A model generated the notes under the pieces. That model searched no databases. It was not told where the DNA came from and worked only from the letters and a program-made list of their open reading frames with translations. A stretch of 64,000 nucleotides of DNA, taken from IMG/VR virus record IMGVR_UViG_3300042564_002756, positions 62,001 through 126,000 of that record. One strand, given 5' to 3'. Below are positions 18,236-64,000 of the stretch, piece by piece. The number at the start of each line of letters is the position of its first letter. Within the stretch, counting starts at the first letter, position 1. A program made the translations under genes and the position numbers. Source of the DNA: a virus.

Positions 18236-19735
18236 TTAATACCTATCTACAATAACGTCTTCGTACTCTGCTGGTTTGAGCTCAGACCGCTCACGAACTT
18301 GCTCGAACGTAGACTTGTTGAACAGCTCGCCGTTCAGGTATACCAGCTTCAAGAGGTTGTCTTCTGGTGTTACCATTTCCTCTGGTAGAGTTCTGTATCC
18401 GCAAGACCCCAAACCACATTGGCGTACCAGAGCAAGACGACCCTCTTTAGACTTTTTGCCGTGATCGCCAACTGGATCCTTGCTGAACCCAACCCAAGGA
18501 CCGTCAGCAATTCGAATTGCACTGGCCTTCATTGCATATTTCAGAGTATCACGATTCCATGCTTGCAACAGTCCGCCTCCCATACCAAATGCGATATTCT
18601 CTAGACTATAACCTGCCGCAATGATATTGTCAACAAGTACTTGCAGAGTATGTTCGTTCAAACCGTCACCTTGAATAACTTTGACAATAGGTGATCCGTC
18701 TGGACGTTTTGCAAGAACTTTGTAGCCCTTGCTATTGACAGTGTAGCCAAAGCATTCTGCGAGGATGTCCATGATTTCAATTGGAACGGTCATCGGATCG
18801 CCAGAGTCAGGGCGGACGACCAAAGTGCCACCACTGTCGATCACCAAGTCTTTGAGTTGATTACCCCAAAGTTCACGAACTGCTTCGTAGATGTTGTAAC
18901 TATCAGACACGCAGGCATAGATGCTTCCCGCAAAGCTGAACTGCGTAACCATATTGCGGTATGCTTCAACCTCGTTAGCACGACCCCAGCTGGTAACGGT
19001 GCTGTGCTCACTAGCAGGAATGGTCCGAGCAACAGGAGGTGCATCCAGACTAGTAATGTCAGCATCGTAGTATGCATATGCACCAAGAATACCTTCGACT
19101 GTATCCGACCCCCAGAAGTTAACCAAGTGACTCATACCACCAAGAACAGCACTTTCAGTTGAGCTTACACCGCGTCCACCAAAGTCGTGCAGAGCAAACT
19201 TGATCACCAAATTCATCAACACGTCAACGGGAATGTCAGAGGTTTTCACCAGAGCCTTTGCAATGATCTTCTTGAACTTACGGCTCTTGGTAGCAACAGT
19301 AGAAGGATACCAAACCCCACGCAACAGTGCCATTTCGATGTAGGAGGTCAGCCAGCCAAATCCACTCGTGGTATTTTTGACCTGCACTTGGACGTTATGA
19401 GTTTCCATAACGGTTCCCTCTGGAACGGCAGTGATTTCGAGTGGCAAAAATCCACCAAACTCGTTGAGCACACGTTCCCAACCTTCACGATTGAAGGGAG
19501 CGCCGTATACTTTGAAGATCAGCTCAGCAAAGTTGATGTCCGCCATAGTAATTGGTGTGGTCATGTAATCCATGATCCAAGCCTGTCCACCAAAGAAGGT
19601 ACTTTTGTCTTCCCCACCACGAGACTCAATATATGAGCTGATGTGAGTTGTGCCTGGCGGGTATTGTTTAAATTGGGATGGTTTGTAACCGTCAGTGCGC
19701 AGAATCGCAGTGAGTAGGTGTAGAATGTTTTTCAT
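18236..19735 (-). CDS. nadV: Nicotinamide phosphoribosyltransferase
   Basis: 499 aa, the usual length of NadV/NAMPT. It joins nicotinamide and PRPP to make NMN. Family signatures: TDGYKPSQFKQYPPGTTHISSY near the N-terminus (residues 14-35), FGGRGVSSTESAVLGGMSHLVNFWGSDT in the centre, and VVRPDSGDP plus IQGDGLNEHTLQVLV in the PRPP-binding half. With the downstream NadM-NUDIX gene it completes a two-step route from nicotinamide to NAD+. It has its own promoter and a structured leader (19733-19784) shared with two other genes. NAD+ is depleted by several anti-phage defences, so a role in restoring it is a reasonable inference. Confidence 0.95.
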   Translation of the reverse strand: MKNILHLLTAILRTDGYKPSQFKQYPPGTTHISSYIESRGGEDKSTFFGGQAWIMDYMTTPITMADINFAELIFKVYGAPFNREGWERVLNEFGGFLPLEITAVPEGTVMETHNVQVQVKNTTSGFGWLTSYIEMALLRGVWYPSTVATKSRKFKKIIAKALVKTSDIPVDVLMNLVIKFALHDFGGRGVSSTESAVLGGMSHLVNFWGSDTVEGILGAYAYYDADITSLDAPPVARTIPASEHSTVTSWGRANEVEAYRNMVTQFSFAGSIYACVSDSYNIYEAVRELWGNQLKDLVIDSGGTLVVRPDSGDPMTVPIEIMDILAECFGYTVNSKGYKVLAKRPDGSPIVKVIQGDGLNEHTLQVLVDNIIAAGYSLENIAFGMGGGLLQAWNRDTLKYAMKASAIRIADGPWVGFSKDPVGDHGKKSKEGRLALVRQCGLGSCGYRTLPEEMVTPEDNLLKLVYLNGELFNKSTFEQVRERSELKPAEYEDVIVDRY

Positions 19736-36469: not shown

Positions 36470-37489
36470 TTAAGCTTCACATGCAGCGCACCCAGCGGCT
36501 GTTACTCTTTTTCTGGTCAATGCTTGGGCGGCCGACATTGAGTAACTGTAATACAAGCTCTTGACACCCATTTCCCATGCATATAGATAAAGTGCATTTA
36601 TTTCTTTTACAGGCATATCTGGATCAACCATCAAGTTCAAACTTTGACCTTGGTCAATGTATTGTTGACGAACACCAGCGTGATCAATAATAGTGTAAGG
36701 GTTAATTTCAGCAAAGGTCTTGAATACTTCTTTTTCATTTGGAGACAAGAAGTCTAGATGTTGGATTGAACCATCTGCATTTTTAATTGTTTCCCATACC
36801 TCTGTTGTGTTTTTACCTTTTTCTTCTAGCAATTCCTGAAGGTAAGGATTTTTAATAGTCACTTTCATCTTTGCAAGATCTTTGACATAGCAATTAGAGA
36901 ACTCAGGCTCGATAGACTGACTTACCTGTCCTAGAATAAAACTACTAGATTTAGTAGGTGCAATTGCCATGGTTGTAGTATTACGCATACCATAACCCTT
37001 AAGTAATGGTGGTTCACCTAGTTTTATTGCAAGTTCACGTGATGCAGCGTGTGAACGTTCCTGTAATGTTTTTGCAATTTCCATGTTCTTCTTTGCTGCT
37101 TCTTTAGATTCAAAACCAATCATATTAGATTGAAGATATGAATGCCAACCAAGAATACCAACACCGATTGCACGATGATTAATTGCAAATTCACGTGCAC
37201 GCTTCAGATATTCTTGACCTTCAGCTTTACGGATAAACTCTTCACAAACTGTATCAAGGAACATTGTCATAACTTCGATAGCGTCTGTTTCAATAATCTC
37301 ATCCCAGTGAAGAGCATTAATTGATGAAAGGACACAAGTAAAAGTTTCAGTGACAGACGACGGAAGTGCAATTTCGATACAATTATGTACCAATATATCG
37401 TTGGCAAAAAAAGATGATGTTTCCGGAACTGTTATATCGTACACGGGTATTTCTTCATCATAATCAATGTATTCTATTCTTATACCCAA
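36470..37489 (-). CDS. nrdA: Split NrdA, C-terminal half: intein-C plus ribonucleotide reductase large subunit
   Basis: 339 aa. Residues 1-36 are the C-terminal part of a split intein (VPETSSFFANDILVHN, ending His-Asn), followed by the C-extein starting CIEIALPSS. That Cys matches the thiyl-radical Cys439 of E. coli NrdA (Asn-x-Cys-x-Glu). The C-extein holds the second redox Cys (ETFTCVLSS), the Tyr-Tyr pair (LYYSYS) and the C-terminal CAAC. After trans-splicing with the 38399-39487 product, the mature subunit should have about 560 residues. Start is a TTG with AAGGAAAC upstream, overlapping the endonuclease gene by ten bases. Confidence 0.93.
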   Translation of the reverse strand: MGIRIEYIDYDEEIPVYDITVPETSSFFANDILVHNCIEIALPSSVTETFTCVLSSINALHWDEIIETDAIEVMTMFLDTVCEEFIRKAEGQEYLKRAREFAINHRAIGVGILGWHSYLQSNMIGFESKEAAKKNMEIAKTLQERSHAASRELAIKLGEPPLLKGYGMRNTTTMAIAPTKSSSFILGQVSQSIEPEFSNCYVKDLAKMKVTIKNPYLQELLEEKGKNTTEVWETIKNADGSIQHLDFLSPNEKEVFKTFAEINPYTIIDHAGVRQQYIDQGQSLNLMVDPDMPVKEINALYLYAWEMGVKSLYYSYSMSAAQALTRKRVTAAGCAACEA

Positions 37490-38328
37490 TTTTTAGTTTC
37501 CTTTTTTGTAAATTGTCTCCATTCGTTTGAATGGAAGCTGTTATATTTTTCTAAAGTTATTCCATCTTTTTCGGAACATTTTATTAATTCATCTACCATA
37601 CCCCAAAATCCTCTATTTGAAAATCTAAACATTTTCCAATGTTTTAGATGAGGTAAATTATAGTAAACAGAATGTTGAATCCAAAAACTACCATTAACCA
37701 GTTTATTGTACTTATAGCAACAATTTTTATAAGATTCTAATAAATCTGTGTCGGAATATTTGCTATTTTGATTAGCATATCCTAGACTCTCGTTACTTCT
37801 TATTTTATTCTGTTCAGCAGTTTTCTTTAATCCTTTAGTAATATGAACCCATTCGCCATTTAAAACCTTTGGATCATTCATTGATACTATACCCAATCTT
37901 TCGCCAGTAAGTAGATTTTTTGCTGGCATAGTTCCAGTTTTACCTTTACTTATAGCTTTATTTGTTTGTATTTTATATTTTTCATATATTCTTGAACTAT
38001 AGTTATATACAGACCTTTTATTATTTACAGGGCCGCCATTTAAAAACATTTTTAATGAAAGATAGCAGCGATATTCCCATTTTGTATTATTCCATATCTT
38101 ACAAAGTATTAAATGTGCTATAAAATGTTCTCTTGGAGTAAGATATGTAATATTACCTACGTGCTCGCCATCACCTTCATATATTCCATCATTATGACGA
38201 AGTTTTCTTTTATTATTTTTATAAAAAAATACCGGTACTATATGATGTTTTTCCAAACTACCGCCCCGAATTTTTTTCCTTCTTATACCTCGTTGGCACA
38301 TATTTTGGTATATTTTTTCATAATTCAT
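37480..38328 (-). CDS. HNH homing endonuclease between the nrdA halves
   Basis: 282 aa. HNH core: LEKHHIVPVFF (about 25-35), HVGNITYLTPREHFIAHLILCKIW (about 56-79), as in free-standing phage HNH homing enzymes; the rest is a basic DNA-binding region with GMVDELIKCSEKDG near the end. It separates the two split-intein genes, the arrangement known as a fractured gene, and should cut intein-less nrdA to spread the element. AT-richer than the nrdA parts. Its ribosome site GGAG is inside a predicted hairpin, with a late promoter in the loop, so expression is probably limited to late infection. Confidence 0.92.
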   Translation of the reverse strand: MNYEKIYQNMCQRGIRRKKIRGGSLEKHHIVPVFFYKNNKRKLRHNDGIYEGDGEHVGNITYLTPREHFIAHLILCKIWNNTKWEYRCYLSLKMFLNGGPVNNKRSVYNYSSRIYEKYKIQTNKAISKGKTGTMPAKNLLTGERLGIVSMNDPKVLNGEWVHITKGLKKTAEQNKIRSNESLGYANQNSKYSDTDLLESYKNCCYKYNKLVNGSFWIQHSVYYNLPHLKHWKMFRFSNRGFWGMVDELIKCSEKDGITLEKYNSFHSNEWRQFTKKETKNWV

Positions 38329-38330
38329 GC

Positions 38331-38377
38331 AGTAAAATCTCCTTTTTATTTTTATTTATAATAAGGGAGATTTCACT
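38331..38377 (-). promoter_or_regulatory. Endonuclease leader: RBS-sequestering hairpin with late promoter in loop
   Basis: On the minus strand AGTGAAATCTCC (38377-38366) pairs with GGAGATTTTACT (38342-38331), 12 pairs with one G-U, hiding GGAG. The loop holds TATAAATA at 38360-38353. A transcript begun about six bases after this octamer would lack the 5' arm and expose the ribosome site. Confidence 0.75.
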
Positions 38378-38398
38378 ACATTATAGAGTGTTTAGAGA

Positions 38399-39487
38399 TT
38401 ATTCACCTATTAGAAGTTCATCATCTTCTGTAAGATCTTTAGCTTCTACCCAACCTCTGTTTTGAGTAAAGATTTTATGATCTGGTGTGCACTCAACAAC
38501 TTTGCCTGTTTTATCATCAGTAATACGTATCATTTTTTTAGTAGAACCAGTTTGGGCGGCCGCAGTAACTTTACAGAAACCTTTTTCTGTTTTTACTTTA
38601 GTCTCAGCTGGTATTCCACCTATTGACCAAAGTTTAACAAATGTTTCTATATCTATTGTTTGTGGTTCTTTTTCAAACGGAAACCACACTGTCATAATAC
38701 TATCACCACGTAGACACATGTTTGACGCATGGATCTTCATCTTTTTATCTTTATAGACTTGAGGCTTGTTATTGTTAACATTATCACCAAATAGGATATA
38801 AGGATACCCAATCTCTGATCTACGCTGAAGTACTTTTGCCCAGATTCGGCGCTTCTCTGCATCACCTTTTTTCATTGACTCTATAAATGAGTCTGAAACA
38901 ACAATACCAGTAGTTAGTCCCTGAATTGGATTTCCTTCGGTTCCAATATCTAAAAACTCGTCGGCATCTGGATGATCAATATCTTGATATGCAGCAAAGA
39001 AACCTCTGCGAACTGAACCTTGTGAAACTACTGATGCGAGTGTATCATATAGTTGCATAAAGTGGACGGAACCTGATGATGCGCCGGAATCTGTAATATT
39101 AGCCCCACGGTGACGGACTGCACCGAAGTAACCGGAACAACCACCACCATTTTTCATTAACATACCGTTTTCTGCAACGCCAAAAAGAATTGATTCCATA
39201 TTATCATCAATATAAGAGCCAAAGCAAGAAACTGGTAAACCACGCTTCTTACCATAATTAGCCCAAACAGGTGATGAGAGAGAATAGAAACCACGTGACA
39301 TATAATCATAAAATTTGTCTGCATATCCAGGAATACCTAGATATTTTTCTGCTGTTGCGGCGATCTCTCTAATTCGACTTTCTGCAGTTTCACCCGCATC
39401 TTCATTGATGTAGCCCCTTGAAAGAAACTTTCGTGAGTCTTCATTCAACCAATAAAATTTTTCGTACGTCTTTGTTACCTCTATCAA
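38399..39487 (-). CDS. nrdA: Split NrdA, N-terminal half: ribonucleotide reductase large subunit plus intein-N
   Basis: 362 aa. Residues 1-257 are the N-extein, with GLPVSCFGSYI holding the first redox Cys (E. coli Cys225) and no ATP-cone. Residues 258-362 are intein-N: it opens CLRGDS and carries the block B motif VECTPDHKIF (Thr and His), then ends after ELLIGE at a natural stop. The junction IHASNM / C lies exactly before the catalytic Cys. Start is a TTG overlapping the nrdB stop (TTGA), with GGAGG upstream. Works only after joining with the 36470-37489 product. Confidence 0.93.
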   Translation of the reverse strand: MIEVTKTYEKFYWLNEDSRKFLSRGYINEDAGETAESRIREIAATAEKYLGIPGYADKFYDYMSRGFYSLSSPVWANYGKKRGLPVSCFGSYIDDNMESILFGVAENGMLMKNGGGCSGYFGAVRHRGANITDSGASSGSVHFMQLYDTLASVVSQGSVRRGFFAAYQDIDHPDADEFLDIGTEGNPIQGLTTGIVVSDSFIESMKKGDAEKRRIWAKVLQRRSEIGYPYILFGDNVNNNKPQVYKDKKMKIHASNMCLRGDSIMTVWFPFEKEPQTIDIETFVKLWSIGGIPAETKVKTEKGFCKVTAAAQTGSTKKMIRITDDKTGKVVECTPDHKIFTQNRGWVEAKDLTEDDELLIGE

Positions 39488-58531: not shown

Positions 58532-58539
58532 TATTTATA
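58532..58539 (-). promoter_or_regulatory. T4-like late promoter octamer
   Basis: TATAAATA on the minus strand in the 58-base gap before the 889-aa virion gene, about 34 bases from its start. No -35 box, as expected for a late promoter read with a phage-encoded sigma factor. Confidence 0.65.
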
Positions 58540-58556
58540 ATGCATTAACTTTACAT

Positions 58557-59117
58557 TTATGATCTTAATCTTACATTTGATAATGATAAAAATTCTGTAG
58601 TAATATATGCCTTTTCTGTAGCAAAATCGTGTGGACAACCTCTATCTTTAATTCGTTTTGGATCTGTATATGTTGGAGTTTCTTTCCAGTCAAATCCATA
58701 TATATCTAAAGATGCAGGGCTAGAACTCATTATCCAATCTAATGCAATTAAACCAGTAGTTGGATTATTATGTTGTCCTGATTTTTTTCTTAGTTCTGTA
58801 TAATTTGGTATCATTGGATAAACAAAATCAGTTTGTTTTGTATTTGCGTCAAATCTTGCCTGGTGGCCTGCGTGCATTTTCTTTACTTTTGGATATTTGG
58901 AAAATTGATTCTTGTATTCACTAGTATTCCAAAATATCCAAACATCTGTCTTTTTACCATGACTTTTTTCAACATCCATTCTATCATATAGCATTGCAGC
59001 TTTATTTAGTCTTACTACTACATCATGTGAATCAATTTCTTTGCCATAATTTTTATCAAAGAGAGACATTGCGTTGCCGATAATGGCAACTGTTTTACCT
59101 TCAAACCATTCTTTCAT
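58557..59117 (-). CDS. GT29-like (sialyltransferase-type) protein, 186 aa
   Basis: VAIIGNAMSLFDKNYGKEIDSHDVVVRLNKA (residues about 10-40) is the donor-site pattern of the GT29 fold, and PTTGLIALDWIM with LDIYGFDW follows. Tandem partner of the next gene, with which it overlaps by four bases. Should move a sugar from CMP- or another activated donor; specificity unknown. Confidence 0.75.
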   Translation of the reverse strand: MKEWFEGKTVAIIGNAMSLFDKNYGKEIDSHDVVVRLNKAAMLYDRMDVEKSHGKKTDVWIFWNTSEYKNQFSKYPKVKKMHAGHQARFDANTKQTDFVYPMIPNYTELRKKSGQHNNPTTGLIALDWIMSSSPASLDIYGFDWKETPTYTDPKRIKDRGCPHDFATEKAYITTEFLSLSNVRLRS

Positions 59118-59617
59118 TTTCTTAACTCAAAAATATTAGTATTAAAAAATTTATTTGCACAATATTTATTTTCTAATTGAAAATCGTGCCTAATGTCGTG
59201 TAGCTTAGTATCATGAAAAGATGGAGTAGCTTTCCAATCAAATCCATATACACAAACCTTTTTAGGATTATAAAGAGAAATTAAATGTAAAATTCGCAAA
59301 CCGGTTGAGGGTCTGTGGTGACCTAAATCACTTTTTAGCCATTCTATATCTATTAAAGGGCTATTTAATATTTCTATAGTATGATTACAAGTTTTTGTTG
59401 TGACCTTTTTCGGGTTCATTGTTTTAAACCAATTTAGAAACCAAACATCAGTTCTTTGGCCATGTGATTTTACATCACTTGGTTTTAACATGAAAAATCC
59501 CCGTTTAATTCTACAGACAACTTCCGAAGAGTCTATTTCGGCTCCATAATTGGTATTGAATAGACTTTTAGCATTACCAACTAGAGAGATTGTTTTACCT
59601 TCAAATAGTTCTTTCAT
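59114..59617 (-). CDS. GT29-like (sialyltransferase-type) protein, 167 aa
   Basis: ISLVGNAKSLFNTNYGAEIDSSEVVCRIKRG and PSTGLRILHLISLYNPKKVCVYGFDWK mirror the neighbour at 58557. The pair is a tandem duplication that has diverged widely in the middle, so the two may add different sugars. ATGA overlaps on both sides. Confidence 0.75.
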   Translation of the reverse strand: MKELFEGKTISLVGNAKSLFNTNYGAEIDSSEVVCRIKRGFFMLKPSDVKSHGQRTDVWFLNWFKTMNPKKVTTKTCNHTIEILNSPLIDIEWLKSDLGHHRPSTGLRILHLISLYNPKKVCVYGFDWKATPSFHDTKLHDIRHDFQLENKYCANKFFNTNIFELRK

Positions 59618-60291
59618 AGTCCTCTCTGTAAACTATAATCCATATAAATTCGTTCTCTGTGCCATTCATCTGCCATAGGTGTTGTCGCAAAATCATGGAA
59701 ACAAGGGGTGCCTAGTGTATAGTGAAGCAATTTTGCACTTTTATTTTCACCGAACTCATCTGGTAACCAGTTCCATTCAATAGGAAGTTCACCTATTAAA
59801 CTATCATCTAACCAAGAAAATCTATGTACTTGTGCACCTGTTGCATTCTGAACAAACTCCGGTGTTACTACTTTGTTTGATTCGTGTCCACAGTTCCATA
59901 ATATCACACTTGACCAATTTTTTCTAGGATAATTTTCATTTTTTGCACCAAGATATTTCTCTGCCATTCGTGTTTTATAATCATGTTTCACCACCATTGC
60001 GGCTTTCGACTCATCTCGCATGTTCCATAGTTCTGTAATATCCCCACGGAGAATCATATCACCATCTAAGAATACAGCCCACCCTTTGTAACCCATTAAA
60101 TGTGGTATTAGAAAACGACTGTATATAAAATGATTACTTCCATCTGTATGCTTTTCTTCATAACCATTCAAAAGATTTAATGAAAGTGGGTTTAAACTTA
60201 TTGGACTGGATGATAGTCTTATAATTGAATTGCTGCAAACGTGGTATGCTGTTGCTTCTCTCTTATCAAATCCTATAAAAATTGGTATCAT
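59614..60291 (-). CDS. Glycosyltransferase, GT8-like, 225 aa
   Basis: IPIFIGFDKREATAYHVCSNSI at the start, WAVFLDGDMILRGDI (the DxD metal site, about 74-88) and the C-terminal HYTLGTPCFHDF...ADEWHRER are typical of GT8-type phage transferases. No membrane segment. Substrate unknown. Confidence 0.82.
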   Translation of the reverse strand: MIPIFIGFDKREATAYHVCSNSIIRLSSSPISLNPLSLNLLNGYEEKHTDGSNHFIYSRFLIPHLMGYKGWAVFLDGDMILRGDITELWNMRDESKAAMVVKHDYKTRMAEKYLGAKNENYPRKNWSSVILWNCGHESNKVVTPEFVQNATGAQVHRFSWLDDSLIGELPIEWNWLPDEFGENKSAKLLHYTLGTPCFHDFATTPMADEWHRERIYMDYSLQRGL

Positions 60292-61064
60292 TTAGGTTTC
60301 CTTCTCATTAATTCTTCATATGCTTTAGTAAAAAATCTTTTTCTATAAGCACCACCTTTGACATCTATGACTATATCTAAGCTTTTAACAACTAAACGGC
60401 CAGTAGCATCTAATGGTTTTACATATGCAGAACCATCATAGTCCATAATTTTTACTTTTAGGCCATCATAATCAAAGAAGTGATTATTTTTATTTTCAAA
60501 ATACTTTGTAATTAAGCCTTTGCTTTCGAGTGCTCTATTAATACTATACATATCAGCACCCCATTTCTTTTCTTCCTCGGTAGATTTGTAATAAAATTCT
60601 TCTCTAGTTTGAAAGAACTTGTCAATTCTATCTTTATTGTTTTCATTTGAATTGACTAAAACTACAGAGTTTCTTACATACCTTTTTTTAGGGTGCACAA
60701 AGAAACAAAGATCAAATTCATCTTTAAAGAAAGCTTCAACACTACCACATATTAAATGATCAGCACCTGTTAGGATTAATTTACCCATATGATTTTTTAC
60801 AAAATTAGTATTTGCTTTTACTATTGCACCCATTAATGGAACATCAGATAAATTACTTCTAAAGCAATCTATACCATTAGTTTCAGTAAATTCATCAGTT
60901 TGTATTACGAATTTATGGTCTTTAGAGTTATATGCATAGAATGTATTCTTTAACTTTTCTATTGCATCCATATAATCAAAGAAATTTACTCTTTCTCTTA
61001 ATTCTGTAGACATATTTTCGGAAGATTTTTTTAAATTTTTATAGAACGGTGCAAAGGTTATCAT
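60288..61064 (-). CDS. Putative glycosyltransferase-like protein, 258 aa
   Basis: Pattern KFVIQTDEF...VPLMGAIVKANTNFVKNHMGKLILTGADHLIC...DLCFFVHPKKRYVRNSVVLVNS with a later EKKWGADMYSINRAL resembles a GT-A-type nucleotide-sugar fold without a clear DxD. Overlaps the aminotransferase gene by 26 bases. Tentative. Confidence 0.6.
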   Translation of the reverse strand: MITFAPFYKNLKKSSENMSTELRERVNFFDYMDAIEKLKNTFYAYNSKDHKFVIQTDEFTETNGIDCFRSNLSDVPLMGAIVKANTNFVKNHMGKLILTGADHLICGSVEAFFKDEFDLCFFVHPKKRYVRNSVVLVNSNENNKDRIDKFFQTREEFYYKSTEEEKKWGADMYSINRALESKGLITKYFENKNNHFFDYDGLKVKIMDYDGSAYVKPLDATGRLVVKSLDIVIDVKGGAYRKRFFTKAYEELMRRKPK

Positions 61065-62106
61065 CTATGGTTTCCTTAATTATTTCAATAACTGTATTTA
61101 CATCAAGATTTGGATATATCGGAAGACTAAGTTGTTTCTTTGCGAGTTTATTTGTGTTTTCTAAGCCGCTTGTATTAAATATGTAAGGACTTTGTGAACT
61201 TACGGGAATATCATAATATACTCTAGTCTGTAATTTACTACTAATTTTACTTATAACATCTTCTCTATTATTTACTAAAATAGTATAAATGTTATAAGAA
61301 TGATTTACGCCAGGTTTAGTTTTTATATTACTAAAATATTTGCTATATTCTCCTGCAATATCTTTCTTTGCAGACATGACGCGACTATAATGTTTAAGTT
61401 TTACGGATAGAAATTCTGCTTGAATATTATCCATTCTATAGTTATAACCAATATCTCCAACTTCCCAATTCCGTAATCGTTTGACTTTATCATAATGTTT
61501 TTCATTATTTGTGATTATGCATCCTGCATCTCCAAGTGCACCTATATTTTTACTTGGATAAAAACTAAAAGTACCTATATCACCGAATGTTCCAACGTGT
61601 TTATCATTTATAGTAGTACCATGTGCCTGACTGCAATCTTCTATTACAGGTATACCATACTTATCTGCTATTTTCATAAGTTCTGGCATATCTACCGCAT
61701 TACCAAATAAATGCACTGGTATGATACACTTGGTCTTCTCTGTGATTTTTTCTTCAACCTTTGAAACATCCATGCAAAATGTTTCTGGATCTATATCTAC
61801 ATATACTGGTATTGCACCTTCATACATTATTGCAGAAACAGTTGCTCTGAATGTATATCCAACTGTAATTATTTCATCACCTGGTTTTATGTTTAATGCT
61901 TTGATTGCAAGATGAAGTGCTGCAGTACCACTAGCAACACATGCAGAATATGATGAACCTACAAAATTTGCAAATTCTTCTTCAAACTTTGATGTACCTA
62001 AAATGTAGTTACCACTTTGTATTATTGTTTCTGCACTAGCATTTAATTCATTAATACAATCTTTATGTATTGCTTGTAGATTAAAGAATGGTATTATTCC
62101 AGCCAT
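61039..62106 (-). CDS. DegT/DnrJ/EryC1/StrS sugar aminotransferase
   Basis: 355 aa, PLP-dependent. VASGTAALHLAIKAL (phosphate site), VIEDCSQAHGT with the PLP-stacking Asp, and FSFYPSKNIGALGDAG with the Schiff-base Lys. Adds an amino group to a keto-sugar nucleotide. The oxidoreductase gene just upstream would make the 3-keto substrate, as in the GnnA/GnnB or WbpB/WbpE pairs. AAGGATAC precedes the ATG; 13-base overlap with the oxidoreductase. Confidence 0.93.
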   Translation of the reverse strand: MAGIIPFFNLQAIHKDCINELNASAETIIQSGNYILGTSKFEEEFANFVGSSYSACVASGTAALHLAIKALNIKPGDEIITVGYTFRATVSAIMYEGAIPVYVDIDPETFCMDVSKVEEKITEKTKCIIPVHLFGNAVDMPELMKIADKYGIPVIEDCSQAHGTTINDKHVGTFGDIGTFSFYPSKNIGALGDAGCIITNNEKHYDKVKRLRNWEVGDIGYNYRMDNIQAEFLSVKLKHYSRVMSAKKDIAGEYSKYFSNIKTKPGVNHSYNIYTILVNNREDVISKISSKLQTRVYYDIPVSSQSPYIFNTSGLENTNKLAKKQLSLPIYPNLDVNTVIEIIKETIDDNLCTVL

Positions 62107-62996
62107 TTTTGTATCCTTCTTGCCTGATAGATATCACTAATCATATTGTCATTATTAGCAATACCATTTATAAATGCTTGTTTAGCCATTTCTAAACCAG
62201 GCATTTGTTTAATTTTTAATTCAATTCCATTTTTACAATTTTCAAATGAAAAGTTTTCATCTATTGGTTTATCAATATTTAAAACATTACAGCGACCATC
62301 TAGATAATTTAAAAGCAATTTTGAACCAGCAATAAAAATTTGTCGTTGTTTAATCGGAGATACCCAACTACATGTAATAGTTGCTCTAAAACCACTTTCA
62401 AATTTTAAATTTATTATAGCGTGATCTGATAATATATTTACATGATAATTCTTTATTTCAGTCTTAGAAATAAGTTTTTGATTTGGAAAAAGAAAATCAA
62501 TGATACTCAAATCATGAATTGCTAAATCATATAGTACATCAACATCCGGTTGAAATAGACCTTGGTGTAATCTATAACTTTCAAAATATAAAGGTTCACC
62601 AAAATCAATATTTTCTTTTATGTGTTGTATTGTAGAGTCATGGCACATAATATGATCAACAAAAACTTTTACTCCCATGTTCTCAGATAGAACAATAAGT
62701 TCATTTATTTCAGTTAAAGATGTGCACGCAGGTTTTTCAATCCACACATGTTTGCCTGTTACTATTGCCTTTTTAGCAAAATCAAAGTGTGTAGCAGCTT
62801 TTGTCGCTATAAGTACTGCTTTGATATTAACATCATTTAATGCTAAATCAAAATTATCATAAATGATTGCATGTGGATATAATTCTTTTAATTGTGGATG
62901 TATTGAGTGATTAGATTCACATATAGCATATAATTCTTTATTGAATGTTCTTGCTATATTTTTACCCCAATAACCATGACCTAATAATAAAAACAT
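62094..62996 (-). CDS. Gfo/Idh/MocA family sugar oxidoreductase
   Basis: 300 aa. N-terminal NAD(P) fold starting LLLGHGYWGKNIARTF, then VLIATKAATHFDFAKKAIVTGKHVWIEKPACTS with the conserved Glu-Lys-Pro, and LYDLAIHDLSIIDFLF with the catalytic His. Likely oxidises the 3-OH of a UDP-sugar, followed by the aminotransferase. Starts directly after the acyltransferase stop. Confidence 0.9.
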   Translation of the reverse strand: MFLLLGHGYWGKNIARTFNKELYAICESNHSIHPQLKELYPHAIIYDNFDLALNDVNIKAVLIATKAATHFDFAKKAIVTGKHVWIEKPACTSLTEINELIVLSENMGVKVFVDHIMCHDSTIQHIKENIDFGEPLYFESYRLHQGLFQPDVDVLYDLAIHDLSIIDFLFPNQKLISKTEIKNYHVNILSDHAIINLKFESGFRATITCSWVSPIKQRQIFIAGSKLLLNYLDGRCNVLNIDKPIDENFSFENCKNGIELKIKQMPGLEMAKQAFINGIANNDNMISDIYQARRIQKWLE

Positions 62997-63584
62997 TTAA
63001 TTTAACTTTCGAAGTTGTTGATATCTATTTATTTCAACGTCTAACATTGCTTCATCTATACTATTTCTAGTCAATGCAATTGTATTTTTCTTTAAATATT
63101 TTGCAGGTGAACCAACGTATGTATTTCCTGGTAATATTGTACTCTTTTTAGTAACAATTGTTCCCATACCTAACATTGAATAAGATCCAATCACTTGAAA
63201 TTGGTGTATCATACAACCAAAACCTATATTAGCATTTTTCATTATTCTACAATGCCCGCCGATCTGCACGGAATTTGATATAGTAGTATTATCTTCTACT
63301 ATGCAATCATGTGCTACATATGAATACATCATTAAATAATTATTAGAACCTATTTCAGTTACTTTAGATAAAACAGTTGGTTTATTTATTGAACAATACT
63401 CTCTAATAACATTGTTATTTCCTATCTTTACAATGCCGTCAGATTTCTCTCGCATATGAACAGCATCAAACCCAATTGTAACATAGGGGTATATTATATT
63501 ACCTTTACCTATGTCAACTACATCCCATTCAATTATTGCAGTTTCATGAATTAGATTACCATTTATCTCTTTAAACCCTTGCAT
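62997..63584 (-). CDS. LpxA-like acyl-ACP sugar acyltransferase, 195 aa
   Basis: Left-handed beta-helix with hexapeptide repeats (IGKGNIIYPYVTIG...VKIGNNNVI...). MMYSYVAHDCIVEDN aligns with the catalytic-His region of LpxA (AHDC), and IGGHCRI and MIHQFQVIGSY match further active-site positions. About 65 residues shorter than bacterial LpxA, with a trimmed C-terminus. It should transfer an acyl chain to an amino or hydroxyl group of a UDP-sugar. Start at 63584 has GAGGAAAA upstream; a longer frame to 63644 overlaps the previous gene. Confidence 0.85.
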   Translation of the reverse strand: MQGFKEINGNLIHETAIIEWDVVDIGKGNIIYPYVTIGFDAVHMREKSDGIVKIGNNNVIREYCSINKPTVLSKVTEIGSNNYLMMYSYVAHDCIVEDNTTISNSVQIGGHCRIMKNANIGFGCMIHQFQVIGSYSMLGMGTIVTKKSTILPGNTYVGSPAKYLKKNTIALTRNSIDEAMLDVEINRYQQLRKLN

Positions 63585-64000
63585 TTTTTTCCTCAAAAAA
63601 TTTATATGCTGCTTTATATAATAAACCTTTTCCAATATCATCATAACTAAAATGCGACATTGCTAAACGCTCTAACCATTCTTGTCTATTATCTGGCATA
63701 TCTGGATTTTCAATTAAACCAAGATTTATATTTGACATAGGATATGCTTGACTCTTTTTTGGATCAAGATCTAATAAAAATACAGGTATACCTTCAATAG
63801 TACTAACAACTGAAGGTGAACTATTATATACTATACAGCACCATGCATCTTTTAGATCTTCTTCTATTCTAGTATTTGATGTTGCACGAATCATATTTTT
63901 AATTTTTGTTTTGTAACTTGCCATCACATGTTCAACTGCAGTATGTAACCGCCCATCACCTGGGTGTTTTCTTATTACTATTTTTCTATCTGTGACTTTA
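63571..64000 (-). CDS. Capsule/GT-B-type polysaccharide protein, 5' part outside window
   Basis: Only the last 142 codons are visible; the frame is open to the window edge. IVIRKHPGDGR and AWCCIVYNSSPSVVSTIEGIPVFLLDLD are typical of capsule-polysaccharide transferases of the KpsC/KpsS and GT-B kind (donor-site Ser-Ser-Pro and Glu-Gly-x-Pro-Val). A Met at 63927 is internal, not the start. First visible gene of the sugar module. Confidence 0.75.
   Translation of the reverse strand, partial: KVTDRKIVIRKHPGDGRLHTAVEHVMASYKTKIKNMIRATSNTRIEEDLKDAWCCIVYNSSPSVVSTIEGIPVFLLDLDPKKSQAYPMSNINLGLIENPDMPDNRQEWLERLAMSHFSYDDIGKGLLYKAAYKFFEEKNARV

Follow-up and report, generated by a model that had tools for sequence, protein, structure and literature searches.

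In Acidithiobacillus ferrooxidans, the Gfo/Idh-type UDP-GlcNAc 3-dehydrogenase GnnA (PDB 7bvj/7bvk) is followed by the DegT-type aminotransferase GnnB, and the product of this pair is passed on to LpxA and into lipid A. A comparable three-step logic, consisting of 3-oxidation, 3-amination and N-acetylation, characterizes the WbpB/WbpE/WbpD (WlbA/WlbB) pathway to UDP-GlcNAc3NAcA (PMC10622841). A further point of reference is PDB entry 8e62, which is titled 'Pcryo_0615 from Psychrobacter cryohalolentis, an N-acetyltransferase required to produce Diacetamido-2,3-...'; PMC10622841 also cites this protein. Among viruses, T4-like pelagimyophages and cyanomyophages carry GT8 and sugar-nucleotide genes, for which an alteration of the host O-chain has been proposed (PMC7029224). 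The main text of that report makes no use of the word "aminotransferase", and a 3-amino-sugar gene trio with a swapped acyl slot is not described there.

Here we analyze a window of 64,000 nucleotides, positions 62001-126000 of a virus record of 137,360 bases, in which a Gfo/Idh-type dehydrogenase (Gfo), a DegT-type aminotransferase (DegT) and an LpxA-like acyltransferase (AcT) are encoded side by side. We consider it probable, at about two chances in three, that these genes form a phage-borne module that would convert UDP-GlcNAc via UDP-3-keto-GlcNAc and UDP-GlcNAc3N into UDP-GlcNAc3NAc, or into a close 3-acylamido (short-acyl) analogue, for use in a glycan of the host surface.

The gene block and its recurrence in phages

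The three genes are intact open reading frames on the minus strand that overlap or abut each other: the short, LpxA-derived left-handed beta-helix acyltransferase AcT (62997..63584), the GnnA-like dehydrogenase Gfo (62094..62996) and DegT, a PLP-dependent aminotransferase of the DegT/DnrJ/EryC1/StrS family (61039..62106). A first-pass annotation had reported dehydrogenase, aminotransferase and LpxA-like genes as neighbors at 61039-63584, and the intact frames, the family matches and the recurrence of the trio bear this out. The outer coordinate that it gave, 63584, falls on Met21 of the longest AcT reading frame (62997-63644, 215 aa) and is probably the true start, because the relatives of AcT begin there and a GAGG sequence is found a few bases upstream of this ATG; the protein would then comprise 195 aa.

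Further genes on the minus strand follow 3' of DegT. The first (60288..61064) encodes a 258-aa protein that may be a GT-A-like glycosyltransferase, judging from a GADHL motif only; it found no match in Pfam, NCBIfam or PHROG and no significant relative in the PDB, and in most related phages a homologue follows DegT on the 3' side, either directly or at a short distance. Family searches identified the next genes as encoding a glycosyltransferase family 8 protein (59614..60291), a GT29 (sialyltransferase)-like protein (59114..59617) and a paralogue of the latter (58557..59117). At the other end, the AcT start is overlapped by a minus-strand reading frame of 329 aa without assigned function, whose C-terminal part occupies 63571..63999 of the window (whole frame L002:8211-9200). 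A third GT29-like gene lies 5' of it, outside the window (L002:9179-9709), so that the block extends beyond the right window edge to L002:9709 (about G000 127069) and measures ~6.5 kb in total. The GC content of its in-window part is 30.5%, compared with 37.1% for the whole window.

Two features could mark the boundaries of the block: a TATAAATA motif at 58532-58539 (-), immediately 5' of the 889-aa gene that lies below it, and, at L002:9741-9762, a terminator-like hairpin immediately 5' of its first gene. The frequency of such late-promoter-like TATAAATA motifs is not above chance, and we therefore claim no expression class. Just upstream of the glycan block is a small gene for a DUF1127 plus DUF3563 protein (L002:10027-10368, minus strand), which is possibly of bacterial origin.

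Outside this block the record is T4-like, with the Sinorhizobium phages phiM12/phiN3 as closest relatives (66% identity for the capsid protein, 58-59% for the terminase). AcT, Gfo and DegT recur at 100% identity and in identical order in four other IMG/VR contigs, and diverged versions of this arrangement are present in about two dozen further phage loci; the trio is therefore neither a chance assembly of genes nor an assembly error. Among the named phages of our phage collection no close Gfo was found (best match about 25% identity over the full length), and AcT had remote matches only in this collection, several of them within records that look bacterial. With regard to the host, the virion genes resemble those of T4-like phages from several hosts, while the AcT homologues and the module's low GC content suggest SAR11-like bacteria.

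A GnnA-like dehydrogenase and a probable C-3 aminotransferase

Gfo matches Pfam family GFO_IDH_MocA (E 2e-16), and its best NCBIfam model is the archaeal UDP-GlcNAc 3-dehydrogenase, with a score far under the cut-off (86 versus 450 bits). When a profile built from 21 phage Gfo homologues was compared with the PDB, two chains only were recovered at E<=1e-15, the better of which was 7bvj. A confident structure model of Gfo (mean pLDDT 92.8) likewise had GnnA of A. ferrooxidans (7bvj/7bvk) as its top matches (TM 0.88), and the catalytic lysine and the Asp-x3-His motif (Lys88, Asp157, His161) are invariant in the 21 homologues. The closest characterized relative of the phage protein is thus the UDP-GlcNAc 3-dehydrogenase GnnA, although the two are only about 22% identical. 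We also considered WbpB. The WbpB structures 3oa2 and 3o9z are absent from the single-sequence (phmmer) PDB matches at E<=0.001, and a profile comparison with the Psychrobacter WbpB aligned 125 columns only, at 61% probability. Since Gfo resembles GnnA and WbpB is not detectably matched over the whole length, the first step is more likely to act on UDP-GlcNAc than on UDP-GlcNAcA.

DegT belongs to Pfam family DegT_DnrJ_EryC1 (E 2e-96) with an intact PLP-lysine motif (SFYPSKN). QdtB and WbpE, both of which are C-3 aminotransferases, are among its relatives of solved structure. From these relatives and from the partner dehydrogenase, we infer that DegT is specific for C-3 as well. Of the GnnA-GnnB-LpxA gene set proposed in the first-pass annotation, the front end, namely 3-oxidation and 3-amination of UDP-GlcNAc, is consequently retained (7bvj as top match; C-3 aminotransferases near DegT), but its assignment of the acyltransferase as LpxA is not.

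AcT as a member of a short, LpxA-derived family

The best NCBIfam match of AcT is LpxA (E 2e-39), with NeuD next, yet its scores fall under the curated LpxA cut-offs (135 versus 226 bits for PRK05289; 125 versus 231 bits for TIGR01852). With 195-215 aa it is shorter than full-length LpxA (about 260 aa); the alignment stops near profile position 217 of 264, and the C-terminal helical domain of LpxA is absent. The AHDC histidine region is kept, as had been noted before: H112 (numbered in the 215-aa frame) corresponds to the catalytic His125 of Escherichia coli LpxA, and His144, His160 and Gln161 are retained too, with a methionine at position 173. Asp74 and Lys76 are among the residues of the GlcNAc pocket of LpxA (PMC7072397). 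AcT has histidine and arginine in their place, while Asp74 is invariant in the aligned canonical LpxA rows.

Where E. coli LpxA reads GNHAT, AcT reads GSPAK, and hexapeptide enzymes of the CoA type typically have such a GxPAK motif. Pcryo_0637, a CoA-dependent beta-helix enzyme, contains in its last turn an Asn-Pro peptide that is cis but adopts the trans form without CoA (PMC8040287); this peptide may be the equivalent of the GxPAK motif of AcT. The proline is shared by all other short proteins except that of phage locus L011 and occurs in a few full-length LpxA proteins as well, so that we treat the motif as supporting, suggestive evidence only.

In a maximum-likelihood tree, 20 short proteins (from phages, SAR11 bacteria and Psychrobacter, and 8e62) are split from 11 LpxA proteins with 100/99 support. 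A profile built from phage AcT sequences only gave the short Psychrobacter protein a score of 159 bits, whereas no full-length LpxA scored more than 129 bits. With AcT as a single query, the top PDB match was 8e62 (104 bits), barely above true LpxA structures (101 bits). Identities within the short family are moderate (38% to the Psychrobacter protein), and the monomer model of AcT is of low quality (pLDDT 74, TM 0.37 to 8e62), so that this model carries little weight. With LpxA and then NeuD as its best models, AcT does not fall into the WbpD/WlbB-like hexapeptide family either; the WbpD-like phage proteins form a separate class. Judged by sequence, AcT is a member of a short LpxA-derived paralogue family that includes 8e62 and stands apart from LpxA.

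Canonical LpxA was accordingly rejected as an identity for AcT on the grounds of score, missing domain, loss of Asp74/Lys76 and separate clade, and the comparison with the LpxA tree that the first-pass annotation had suggested goes against its LpxA label. It had also named grouping with acetyl-CoA-type enzymes as an outcome that would speak against LpxA; the nearest solved relative is indeed an N-acetyltransferase, but AcT is still LpxA-derived. We take 8e62 (Pcryo_0615) to be an N-acetyltransferase that acts in a 2,3-diacetamido sugar pathway, and AcT itself is most likely an acetyl-CoA:3-amino-sugar N-acetyltransferase.

The same features bear on a GnnA-GnnB-LpxA route to lipid A, along which AcT would N-acylate UDP-GlcNAc3N with a 3-hydroxyacyl-ACP and provide infected cells with an amide-linked diamino lipid A. 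A GnnA-like Gfo and an LpxA-derived AcT with its catalytic histidine would suit such a route, but the sub-threshold scores, the truncated C-terminus, the altered GlcNAc pocket and the position in the tree do not, and the phage partner of the GnnA-like enzyme is thus a non-canonical LpxA. Together with the bacterial genomes and the slot swaps in sister phages described below, this makes a lipid A precursor a very improbable product, and we have dropped this part of the earlier interpretation as the main reading.

Bacterial counterparts

Bacterial genomes gave no match to a two-sequence AcT alignment, whereas a wider alignment recovered 18 SAR11 contigs that encode the short protein, at 43-56% identity, as well as one Psychrobacter. 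In the Psychrobacter genome and in three SAR11 genomes, the short paralogue is present on top of a canonical LpxA (318-341 bits, about 260 aa), a finding that also argues against lipid A as the destination. In 147 sampled genomes of the family to which one of the SAR11 genomes belongs, nearly all matches were in frames of ~260 aa and two scored as the short type; the short gene is therefore a patchy accessory. It adjoins DegT and Gfo genes and large glycosyltransferases in some SAR11 contigs, and polysaccharide clusters of Gloeothece and Sinorhizobium have acyltransferase, Gfo and DegT genes in the same order as the phage. In Psychrobacter (L123), the short gene is found between a clear WbpB gene and a gene for a WbpE-like aminotransferase.

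T4-like phages are able to glycosylate their own DNA, and a module placed among glycosyltransferases in such a phage might serve to modify the phage itself, on its virion proteins or its DNA, and not the host surface. We regard this as improbable, in view of the bacterial homologues in polysaccharide clusters and of the comparable pelagimyophage genes, which have been argued to act on the host O-chain (PMC7029224).

The Psychrobacter cluster and 8e62, both of the WbpB/WbpE type, lend some support to a uronic acid route, in which the trio would act on UDP-GlcNAcA, supplied by a 6-dehydrogenase of phage or host, and yield UDP-GlcNAc3NAcA; a nucleotide-sugar dehydrogenase-family gene directly 5' of AcT in phage locus L011 is in keeping with this. 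Because its cluster uses WbpB, the natural substrate of Pcryo_0615 is probably a uronic acid, and such a substrate should not be expected from the GnnA-like phage Gfo, for which phmmer found no WbpB and the profile match was partial and weak. The window's own block, moreover, contains no nucleotide-sugar dehydrogenase. We therefore consider this route unlikely, while granting it some weight. A WbpB/E/D-type sugar, the alternative offered in the first-pass annotation, accounts for the third step better than LpxA does; in its components the phage trio differs from that pathway, with a GnnA-like Gfo in place of WbpB and an AcT outside the WbpD-like family.

A cluster of a different kind was encountered in a Propionivibrio metagenome-assembled genome (L124:3943-6714). 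With 266 bits, the LpxA of this Gfo-DegT-LpxA cluster exceeds the LpxA cut-off, it retains Asp74/Lys76, and the same genome has another canonical LpxA; the cluster is a candidate for a genuine GnnA-GnnB-LpxA set.

Swapping of the acyl gene

The Gfo-DegT pair recurs widely in viral contigs. We dereplicated the phage loci at 95% Gfo identity into 26 groups and defined the slot as the gene 5' of Gfo, either directly or within about 700 bases. It is occupied by an LpxA-derived gene in 6/26 groups, by a WbpD-like hexapeptide gene in 12/26 and by a formyltransferase gene in 5/26; the remaining 3/26 have no identified acyl gene, although in one of them, L031, a gene for a GNAT acetyltransferase lies at a greater distance 5' of the pair. 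Mapped onto the Gfo tree, an LpxA-like slot calls for three changes, which may represent separate gains or one gain with losses. Since LpxA-derived, WbpD-like and formyltransferase genes share one slot, a plausible common job is the acylation of the 3-amino group provided by the conserved pair. Neither a formyltransferase nor a WbpD-like enzyme could make lipid A. The pattern points instead to N-acylation of a 3-amino sugar destined for a glycan, most likely as UDP-GlcNAc3NAc.

Proposed pathway

In the pathway that we favor, Gfo would oxidize C-3 of UDP-GlcNAc in the manner of GnnA, DegT would aminate this position to give UDP-GlcNAc3N, and AcT would N-acylate the new amine, most likely with acetyl-CoA, to yield UDP-2,3-diacetamido-2,3-dideoxyglucose (UDP-GlcNAc3NAc) or a close analogue. 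One of the adjacent phage glycosyltransferases could then transfer the sugar onto a glycan of the host surface, for example the O-chain, so that the receptor would probably be altered during infection. Counting against this pathway are the retention in AcT of His125, His144, His160 and Gln161 of LpxA, the narrow lead of 8e62 over the LpxA structures, the probable uronic acid substrate of Pcryo_0615, the lack of the GxPAK proline in L011 and the poor quality of the AcT model.

The module would share its three-step logic with the WbpB/WbpE/WbpD pathway, whose third enzyme has its counterpart in the WbpD-like slot genes of other phages, and its short acyltransferase with Pcryo_0615. Its relative in Psychrobacter likewise has Gfo and DegT partners, but these are true WbpB and WbpE. 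With the pelagimyophages and cyanomyophages it has in common the T4-like background and the combination of GT8 and sugar-nucleotide genes. T4-like phages thus appear to carry a small 3-amino sugar pathway with a fixed core of 3-dehydrogenase and 3-aminotransferase and an acylating gene that varies by phage. If the enzymes act as their families suggest, phages would be modifying a surface sugar at its N-acyl group, which would be a compact means of altering receptors or excluding competitors. A family annotated as LpxA probably makes O-antigen-type sugars, in SAR11 bacteria as well.

Other features of the record

Beyond the window, the UvsX gene is split (L002:17157-19544; G000 about 134517-136904) into an N-half with an intein N-part, a NUMOD3 (homing endonuclease-like) reading frame, and a C-half that begins with an intein C-part-like stretch and carries the UvsX C-terminal domain; the arrangement resembles that of a split intein whose endonuclease is free-standing. 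The gene for the large subunit of ribonucleotide reductase is split likewise (window 36470-39487, minus strand): part of an intein-splicing domain is present in its N-half and another part in its C-half, and a reading frame without assigned identity (37480-38328) lies between them. A nicotinamide phosphoribosyltransferase gene at 18236-19735 (minus strand) adds phage NAD metabolism to the contents of the window.
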